The position numbers and the translations under genes are program-made. 64,000 bases of DNA, from positions 186,001 through 250,000 of the forward strand of contig WBSG01000003.1 in assembly GCA_008923285.1 (NCBI GenBank). Direction: 5' to 3'. The notes below the pieces were generated by a model, which saw nothing but the letters and a program-made list of their open reading frames with translations, did no database searches and was not told the origin of the DNA. Shown in pieces: positions 40,759 through 42,364 of this stretch. This DNA comes from Betaproteobacteria bacterium SCN2 (GTDB lineage Bacteria; Pseudomonadota; Gammaproteobacteria; Burkholderiales; Thiobacillaceae). Each line of letters opens with the position of its first letter. Positions within the stretch are counted from its first letter, which is position 1.

Positions 40759-40843
<85 letters not shown>

Positions 40844-40883: not shown

Positions 40884-41039
40884 GTTCTGTGGCCGAATTA
40901 TGCCACGCCAGCACCCGCAGTTCTTCCCAAATGACGGACAATGCGCTAGAAAGACAACTGATTACTGGTCTCATCCACGTTTCGTGCACCACCTTTAATC
41001 GTTTTCAAGCCGTCGCGAACAGGCGGCAACAAAAAAGAC

Positions 41040-41068
41040 TTGCCAGTCTTTAATTTATTAAATACATT
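41040..41068 (+). promoter_or_regulatory. putative promoter of the cytochrome module
   Basis: TTGCCA (41040-41045) and TACATT (41063-41068) with a 17-base spacer, in an AT-rich stretch standing out from the GC-rich surroundings, about 30 bases before the Shine-Dalgarno of the first cytochrome gene. Confidence 0.5.
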
Positions 41069-41103
41069 AGCAACCACTTATCTTCAAAGAGAGGGATATG
41101 TCC

Positions 41104-41490
41104 ATGTCGAGCAAACCGATTCTGCTTCTTGCCACTGCCGCTGTCGCAACCGCGCTGCTGGCGGGCTGCGGCCAAAAAGAGACCAAGCCGCTTACCTACC
41201 AGGCCGACATCAAGCCCATCCTCGACCAGTACTGCGTGGAATGCCACAAGGCCGGCGGCCAGGGCACGGAAAAATCCGGTCTGCTGCTCGACACCTATGC
41301 CGCCACCATGCGTGGCACCAATTTCGGCCCTGTGGTCATCGCCGGCCAGGCCATCAACAGCACGCTTTATCGACTCGTCTCCGGCAAGGCAGATCCCTCC
41401 CTGCGCATGCCGCACAACCAGGCTCCGCTTTCTGAGGAGAACGTGAACACCATCAAGGACTGGATCGACCAGGGCGCCAAAGAGCAATAA
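41104..41490 (+). CDS. c-type cytochrome lipoprotein of unknown role
   Basis: A 128-residue exported protein. A signal peptide ends in the lipobox LLAGC (lipidated Cys22), predicting an outer- or inner-membrane-anchored periplasmic protein. One haem c site, CVECH, is at 44-48 in DIKPILDQYCVECHKAGG; a later RMPH supplies a possible Met distal ligand. The C-terminal LSEENVNTIKDWIDQGAK resembles domains found at the ends of small soluble cytochromes. ATG at 41104 has GAGAGGG eight bases upstream (an ATG at 41098 is also open). The next gene encodes a membrane cytochrome and is likely its partner. Confidence 0.85.
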   Translation: MSSKPILLLATAAVATALLAGCGQKETKPLTYQADIKPILDQYCVECHKAGGQGTEKSGLLLDTYAATMRGTNFGPVVIAGQAINSTLYRLVSGKADPSLRMPHNQAPLSEENVNTIKDWIDQGAKEQ

Positions 41491-41520
41491 TTCCCTGTCA
41501 CTTCAACCGGGACCCCAATC

Positions 41521-42321
41521 ATGAACAGCTTTCTTCATTTCAAGTTCCTGCCGCTGTCGCTGCGCATGGTGTACACCATGACCCTGCTGGTGCTGGGCAC
41601 GGGCTACCTGTTCGCAATGATCCAGGTATTCGAGGTGCATGCCGGACGCGACGGCAATCCCTCGCTGTCCGCGAACGACCTGCGCATCGCCTACAGCGGC
41701 CAGTCCGGCGGCACCCGGCTGGAGTCTGCGCTGCACGGCCCGATGAAAAGCATGTTGCCGAACGAGGAGCGCCAAGTCATCCTGGACTGGATCAACAAGG
41801 ACGATGCCTCCAAGGAAAGCTATGACGCCAGGGTCAAGCCCATCATGGACACGCGCTGCATCATGTGCCACAGCGCCGCCGCCAACCCGCACCTGCCCTC
41901 GCTGACCAGCCACGACGAGGTATCCAAGCTGATCGTGAAGGACGAAGGCATGAGCATCGCCACCCTGGTGCGCGTGTCCCACATCCACCTGTTCGGCATC
42001 ACCTTCATCTTTTTCATCGTCAGCCTGATTTTCGCGCACAGCTATCTGCGTCCGGTGTGGATCAAGTGTGTGGTCATCATCGTGCCCTTCCTCACCATCC
42101 TCATGGACATCGCCTCCTGGTACCTGACCAAGATGTGGCCGGCCTTTGCCTGGATGGTGATCGGCAGCGGCGCGCTGATGGGTCTTTCCTTCGCCATCCA
42201 GTGGTTCACGTCGATGTACCAGATGTGGTTCTACAAGCCGCCGAAGGAATTGCTTGAATGCGGCGGCCAGTTGCCCATCATGGGCGACGGCAGCATCAAG
42301 TGCCAGCCCTACAGGGAATAG
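41521..42321 (+). CDS. integral membrane c-type cytochrome of unknown function
   Basis: A 266-residue protein not assigned to a named family by me. One N-terminal membrane helix (about 17-37) is followed by a periplasmic segment with MLPNEERQVILDWINKDDA and a haem c site CIMCH at 113-117, then three more helices (about 156-173, 180-200 and 208-230). A conserved-looking SHIHLFG at the start of the second helix offers His residues that might bind haem b, a metal or quinone. The EERxxILDWI motif also occurs, in the other order relative to CxxCH, in the upstream lipoprotein. It starts 30 bases after that gene and is followed by a strong terminator. Confidence 0.8.
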   Translation: MNSFLHFKFLPLSLRMVYTMTLLVLGTGYLFAMIQVFEVHAGRDGNPSLSANDLRIAYSGQSGGTRLESALHGPMKSMLPNEERQVILDWINKDDASKESYDARVKPIMDTRCIMCHSAAANPHLPSLTSHDEVSKLIVKDEGMSIATLVRVSHIHLFGITFIFFIVSLIFAHSYLRPVWIKCVVIIVPFLTILMDIASWYLTKMWPAFAWMVIGSGALMGLSFAIQWFTSMYQMWFYKPPKELLECGGQLPIMGDGSIKCQPYRE

Positions 42322-42334
42322 GCTGGCAGCAAAC

Positions 42335-42364
42335 AAAAAAACCGGGCAGTTGCCCGGTTTTTTT
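42335..42364. terminator. bidirectional intrinsic terminator between the cytochrome module and purA
   Basis: ACCGGGCA and TGCCCGGT (42341-42348 and 42351-42358) with flanking A6 and T7 runs form a symmetric stem. Both strands have a U-run, so it can end transcription from the cytochrome pair and from purA. Confidence 0.9.

Follow-up and report, generated by a model that had tools for sequence, protein, structure and literature searches.

What could a lipid-anchored cytochrome and a neighbouring membrane cytochrome of no named family do together? The question arises in a stretch of 64,000 nucleotides from Betaproteobacteria bacterium SCN2 (the window, by which we mean this whole stretch), where the two genes, here called cytL and cytM, lie on the + strand between tRNA-Leu(CAG) (40759-40843) and the convergent gene purA. 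Both reading frames were chosen by a codon-usage gene caller, and 30 bases separate the stop of cytL from the start of cytM. A sequence-only reading of this DNA had described a self-contained unit at 41040-42364 with an AT-rich promoter and a strong terminator of its own; both elements were recovered, and these limits are the start of the promoter and the end of the terminator:

41040-41068, + strand, sigma-70-type promoter of the cytL-cytM unit (TTGCCA-17-TACATT)
41104-41490, + strand, cytL, monohaem lipoprotein cytochrome of 128 amino acids (gene caller; PSCyt1, PF07635)
41521-42321, + strand, cytM, four-helix membrane monohaem cytochrome of 266 amino acids, no named family
42335-42364, + strand, intrinsic terminator of the cytL-cytM unit (13-bp stem, U tract)

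The promoter region is 69% AT against 37% for the window, and the -35/-10 core is kept upstream of cytL in three loci of the same genus (L004, L005 and L006); one promoter-like site was found where shuffled sequences led us to expect 0.5. The 51 bases around the terminator stem fold with -23.9 kcal/mol (z -3.6), and the terminator is possibly shared with purA. A simple scan detected no terminator in the unit despite the 13-bp stem and U tract, probably because the stem extends into A and T tracts.

The first protein is readily placed. The proposed lipid-anchored cytochrome with a CVECH motif was borne out by the reading frame, the motif and a lipobox (LLAGC, by reading of the signal sequence), and an ATG at 41098 offers an alternative start. 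CytL matches PSCyt1 (PF07635) with 35.4 bits, above the Pfam gathering cut-off of 22, and its domain runs from an N-terminal helix through CxxCH and a Met loop to a C-terminal helix. Met102 is the probable axial haem ligand. Its structure model was poor (pLDDT 60) and was left out of the analysis.

41233-41247, + strand, CVECH haem-binding motif of cytL
41407-41409, + strand, Met102 of cytL (RMPH), invariant in four compared sequences

The second protein is harder to place. It carries one CxxCH only, and its reading frame, the CIMCH motif and the SHIHLFG that heads the C-terminal helices are all found as the sequence-only reading had them.

41857-41871, + strand, CIMCH haem-binding motif of cytM; CxxCH in 77 of 77 sequences
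41956-42231, + strand, helices 2-4 of cytM; RVSHIHLFG is close to where helix 2 starts, D196/W200/K204 close to where helix 3 ends

Hydropathy and AlphaFold2 agree on four membrane helices, of which the first is N-terminal and the others are C-terminal; in the AlphaFold2 model, computed from 11 sequences and of medium quality (pLDDT 72, pTM 0.50), a mixed domain separates the first long helix from the other three. The protein had been thought to stand outside the named respiratory families, and the profile searches that might have identified it as a known oxidoreductase subunit returned no named family: no Pfam model exceeded its cut-off, NCBIfam gave zero matches even at E ≤ 10, and 11 members scanned singly against Pfam reached a best E-value of 0.006. 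Neither NapC/NirT (PF03264) nor, in NCBIfam, HupC (TIGR02125) matched the cytM of the window at E ≤ 10, and the four-helix HemJ model (PF03653) did not match either. The PDB sequence search yielded weak E-values, mainly for the stretch around the haem motif. Among the 45 Foldseek matches listed none reached E ≤ 0.001, and the best VIA-align match (Z 8.3) is a helical bundle, weak and generic, so that nothing is drawn from either fold search. Pfam, NCBIfam, Foldseek and PDB sequence searches matched cytM to no named or solved quinol-oxidising family and revealed neither a quinone nor a haem b site. The available portions of the literature searched, including those of PMC7029218 and PMC12442390, the latter on the iron-responsive cluster IrcABCD of Sideroxydans, do not describe a cytM-type protein.

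Conservation nevertheless singles out particular residues. In an alignment of 77 cytM sequences (76 distinct), Y58, G60, M75, W90, C113, C116, H117, G143, S153, H154, H156, P189, D196, W200 and G217 are invariant, while R151 (74/77), K204 (75/77) and D141 (76/77) are nearly so. Met75 (41743-41745) lies N-terminal to CxxCH and may serve as the axial haem ligand. Since a c-type haem is expected on the periplasmic side, the N terminus of cytM would lie inside; R151-H156 and D196-K204 would then mark those ends of helices 2 and 3 that face the periplasm. It is plausible that this cluster forms a cofactor or quinol site.

The position of Met75 touches on a further peculiarity. Both proteins carry an EExxxxIxDWI motif, on opposite sides of CxxCH, and a common permuted domain had been suggested on this ground. 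We divided the haem domain of cytM accordingly:

41686-41805, + strand, residues 56-95 of cytM, Met loop and C-terminal-helix half, placed first
41806-41964, + strand, residues 96-148 of cytM, N-terminal helix and CxxCH half, placed second

In profile alignments with cytL, the cytM haem domain in its natural order scored 55.1 over 35 columns, whereas the domain with swapped halves scored 67.1 over 80 to 82 columns; the reversed control scored 55.1. None of 200 column shuffles of the first half reached 67.1 (mean 55.3, maximum 60.1). It is the score and not the aligned length that separates the real order from the shuffles, as 7 of the 200 span at least 75 columns (up to 85) with lower scores. 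Residues 60-96 of cytM alone scored 29.2 against the C-terminal half of cytL, a value that none of 300 column shuffles equalled, the best of them having 21.0; for seven other stretches of cytM the score was below 11. As judged from these alignments, the similarity of the EExxxxIxDWI helices is beyond chance. Swapping gained nothing against small soluble cytochromes encoded near cytM (33.7 vs 33.5), which relates the cytM haem domain to the cytL type. Pfam added little: when five native and five swapped domains were scanned, two of the five swapped ones matched PF00034 over almost its whole length, with a gain of at most 1.2 bits, and the remaining three showed no new match of this extent. The comparisons with soluble cytochromes and with Pfam count against the proposed permutation. 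The shuffle tests support it, with cytM appearing to hold a cytL-type domain whose halves stand in opposite order. If so, cytM would contain a cytochrome c domain that has been circularly permuted in nature; a literature search by title and abstract, with poor coverage of subscription journals, returned no example of this. Its origin could also be other than a clean permutation, namely gain of a haem beside a pre-existing helix, since a haemless relative may, by alignment, keep part of the EE-helix.

This relative, itself unnamed, occurs in seven loci (L089-L092 and L094-L096; none was found in L093, the eighth). It aligns with cytM over 204 columns with a probability of 99%, and helices 2-4 alone score 84.0, whereas the best of 100 shuffles reached 20.1. 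The relative keeps the SHxH motif and the Asp, and a His/Met-rich stretch occupies the position of the haem domain. A conserved protein of about 200 amino acids is encoded beside it in all seven loci and a conserved exported protein of 340 amino acids in five. Gene clusters further place a DUF4198-type gene nearby in six of the seven loci and a DUF3347-type gene in two, both types having been identified in L096 and assigned to the other loci by gene cluster; any tie of these domains to metals is our assumption. That one scaffold bears either a haem domain or a His/Met-rich loop gives a direct handle on the scaffold's role.

Do the two genes belong together beyond the window? The genome itself has one full cytM. 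Among 61 genomes of relatives, cytM was matched in 27, all of its own family, and cytL in seven, six of them strongly; in five of these six, cytM is directly adjacent. The class sample of 369 genomes contains cytM matches in 65 at E 0.001 (56 below 1e-30), the weak ones including the haemless type, and cytL matches in 46. For the co-occurrence count, cytM was regarded as close at an identity of at least 48% (30 genomes), and 4 of the 46 cytL genomes (E >1e-20) and 9 of the 65 cytM genomes (E >1e-30) were dropped. CytL is then present in 23 of the 30 close-cytM genomes and in 19 of the 339 others (Fisher p 3e-19, kinship ignored), so the co-occurrence that the sequence-only reading had called for is found; by coordinates, the genes lie within about 3 kb of each other in 13 of the 23. 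The notion of a two-gene unit holds for the window but not throughout, as only 5 of the 27 own-family genomes with cytM have cytL (a sixth, G017, matches it weakly); outside this sample the slot of cytL beside cytM is often filled by a different cytochrome. In the phylum sample, cytM matches occur in 64 of 398 genomes, 60 of them outside its own class and 57 in family f225. Plasmid records gave one weak partial match. One genome carries a short cytM fragment (G186:C13:44045-44116, beside L075), possibly a partial duplication, which covers residues 28-51 with 75% identity and lies about 1.6 kb past the intact gene.

The suggested survey of neighbours showed redox genes beside cytM and cytL in other genomes. 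A CxxCH gene directly adjoins cytM in 22 of 45 close-cytM loci, compared with 11 of 172 genes further off in the same loci; these adjacent genes encode cytL, proteins of four to six haems or monohaem proteins of about 100 amino acids. For these counts, L125 and L035 are the same locus and were counted once. Thirteen fetched loci had no BLAST match to cytM among the called genes: seven cytM loci (L040, L044, L045, L047, L049, L057 and L109) stand outside the counts, and the other six have weak or haemless-type matches. In L007, the same place as the uncounted L040, cytL and cytM are adjacent, and in the uncounted L057 a tetrahaem gene lies downstream. A cytochrome gene next to cytM is absent in 13 of the 18 counted own-family loci and in 7 of 17 f225 loci, and it adjoins 1 of 10 homologues of group 2. 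L101 and L102 hold group-2 homologues of cytM, and the neighbours in L101 read like subunits of a 2-oxoacid:ferredoxin oxidoreductase.

The arrangement in f225 is recurrent, with the order cytM, monohaem cytochrome c, in some cases a trihaem cytochrome c, and hemN in 10 of 17 fetched loci (13 genomes). The trihaem gene is present in eight of these ten and a globin gene follows in six; the neighbour families were checked in L206 and L213 only. A HemN-like gene also directly precedes cytM in L121. Protoporphyrinogen oxidase, a function that the hemN neighbours brought to mind, was rejected for cytM given the missing PF03653 match and a separate HemJ-type gene in its own genome; a gene matching PF03653 is absent in two of two f225 genomes, which leaves this function a small residue.

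Other neighbourhoods point to respiratory complexes. Two loci hold a cytM homologue within a [NiFe]-hydrogenase operon (L211:6211-6960 and L220:6114-6863), between HybE-like and large-subunit-like genes; gene models, run on L211 alone, assign HupC there to a gene of its own and leave the cytM homologue without a match at 1e-5. In L034, L036 and L059, cytM adjoins FeS-NrfD genes accompanied by multihaem proteins, as does cytL in L174. CytL without cytM directly precedes Rieske and cytochrome b genes in two genomes of one family (L157:6275-6655 and L162:5740-6120). In these bc1-type loci the Rieske protein is above the cut-off in both and cytochrome c1 was assigned by reading, while the best model matches of cytochrome b, run in L157 only, are below the cut-off. 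By reading of 15 regions in which cytL stands apart from cytM, seven lie near cytochrome or other redox genes and eight do not.

Regulation may tie part of the family to low oxygen. Upstream of the unit lies a palindrome at which own-family relatives have intact boxes:

40995-41008, + strand, degraded FNR/DNR-type palindrome (TTAATCGTTTTCAA, 8/10)

The box TTGAY-N4-RTCAA, which we take to be the motif of FNR/ANR/DNR regulators, is present at 9/10 or better in 15 of 28 own-family loci (L004, L006, L010-L012, L014, L015, L017-L020, L022, L023, L025 and L030), 12 times perfectly; 300 shuffled sets gave a mean of 0.5 and a maximum of 3. For 14 of the 15 boxes the distance to the start of cytM, or to that of the cytL-cytM unit, is 85-114 bases, and the match in L006 (9/10), 213 bases away, is probably due to chance. 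In L005 and L007 the distance was measured from cytM and not from cytL; measured from cytL, the site in L005 scores 8/10, while L007 yielded no value. Other groups lack the box: it occurs twice among 28 further close loci, never among the 12 of group 2 and once among the 19 from the phylum set. Low-oxygen control of cytM, by a regulator that the motif suggests, is therefore likely in own-family relatives; it is reserved for these and not extended to the copy in the window, because the site there is degraded and not conserved within its own genus.

What function fits these observations? The haem motif, the four helices, the swapped-half relation, the conserved cluster, the co-occurrence, the redox neighbours and the boxes of the relatives are read from sequence, while topology, the quinol donor, the direction of flow, partner contacts, Met75 as axial ligand and the regulator are what we infer from them. 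On balance, we favour an electron-transfer module of cytL and cytM between the membrane, on the quinol side, and periplasmic cytochromes, to which we give a probability of about one half. Such a module accommodates the haem c and the conserved cluster as well as the neighbouring cytochrome, hydrogenase, bc1 and NrfD genes. Against it count the missing match to any quinol-oxidising family, the loci in which no cytochrome gene adjoins cytM, the degraded box of the window with its scarcity in other groups, the medium quality of the model, and the lack of association of close cytM with SoxB (14 of 30 vs 136 of 339 genomes) or CcoN (16 of 30 vs 180 of 339), the 30 genomes having been taken from lists by eye. 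CytM would be an inner-membrane cytochrome whose four-helix scaffold bears a His-x-His / Asp-Trp-Lys cluster on its periplasmic side, with a circularly permuted c-type haem domain placed between helices 1 and 2. The scaffold would most likely exchange electrons with the quinone pool, directly or via a bound cofactor, and haem c would pass them to a periplasmic or lipid-anchored cytochrome, here cytL and elsewhere a multihaem or small monohaem cytochrome; in its own family, cytM is probably part of an oxygen-limited programme. The route from the membrane, possibly from quinol, to the periplasm that had been envisaged agrees with the neighbours in other genomes and is to this extent partly supported. 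If the module is real, bacteria of differing metabolism possess, in a widespread unnamed family, a further path for electrons from membrane to periplasm. Only tentatively do we suggest that cytM forms a new class, a minimal one-subunit quinol:cytochrome c oxidoreductase with a permuted haem domain in a His-x-His scaffold, for which evolution has also produced a version with a His/Met-rich loop, perhaps metal-binding, where the haem would be.

The haemless scaffold, with its His/Met-rich stretch and its DUF4198-type (6/7) and DUF3347-type (2/7) neighbours, would also suit a protein that handles metals or cofactors with the help of haem, binding copper, iron or haem on the periplasmic side while the permuted cytochrome sets the redox state, for assembly or homeostasis. 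The copy among the maturation genes of a hydrogenase operon and the hemN neighbours in f225 point the same way, but CxxCH is kept in all 77 aligned members and a cytochrome gene adjoins cytM in about half of the close loci, and we regard such a role as unlikely. The hydrogenase operons could also be read in terms of reverse flow, with cytM taking electrons from periplasmic cytochromes during the oxidation of hydrogen, iron or sulfur and delivering them to the quinone pool or another membrane enzyme. The genome in question does carry the thiosulfate-oxidation gene soxB, yet close cytM shows no association with SoxB; nothing in the sequence fixes the direction, and we hold this reversal to be improbable. 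We give similarly little credence to a mere membrane dock, in which the helices, themselves devoid of a redox site, would hold the haem domain close to a larger complex. That Foldseek and VIA-align recognised no known cofactor fold speaks weakly for a dock, but the invariance of H154, H156, P189, D196 and W200 (77/77) goes beyond what a dock needs, and the SHxH motif and Asp persist even where the haem is missing.

How does the electron-transfer module compare with known systems? For the haem domain the comparison is with PSCyt1-type monohaem cytochromes (PF07635): cytL passes the cut-off, and about 80 columns of the cytL family can be aligned with the cytM domain once its halves are swapped, whereas in cytM itself the halves are reversed and built into a membrane protein of four helices. 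PccH of Geobacter (PF22297, 4rlr) is the top match of cytM both in Pfam and in the PDB sequence search, around the N-terminal helix and CxxCH, but with 17 bits it is below the cut-off of 24.4, covers positions 2-46 of 133 and leaves out the membrane part of cytM. The cytochrome domain of hydrazine synthase alpha (5c2v) offers counterparts for both helices of cytM, as a weak match (E 0.045, second stretch -0.6 bits), but in the ordinary order (643-667, then 747-766) and thus opposite to cytM. The haemless His-x-His relative shares the scaffold, with a His/Met-rich stretch for the haem domain and a different operon. With NapC/NirT, NrfD and the HupC cytochrome b, cytM may share its work, the link between the quinone pool and periplasmic cytochromes, and NrfD and HupC genes lie in the neighbourhood in some genomes; it differs from all three in lacking a sequence match to them and in combining one haem c, four helices and a permuted domain.
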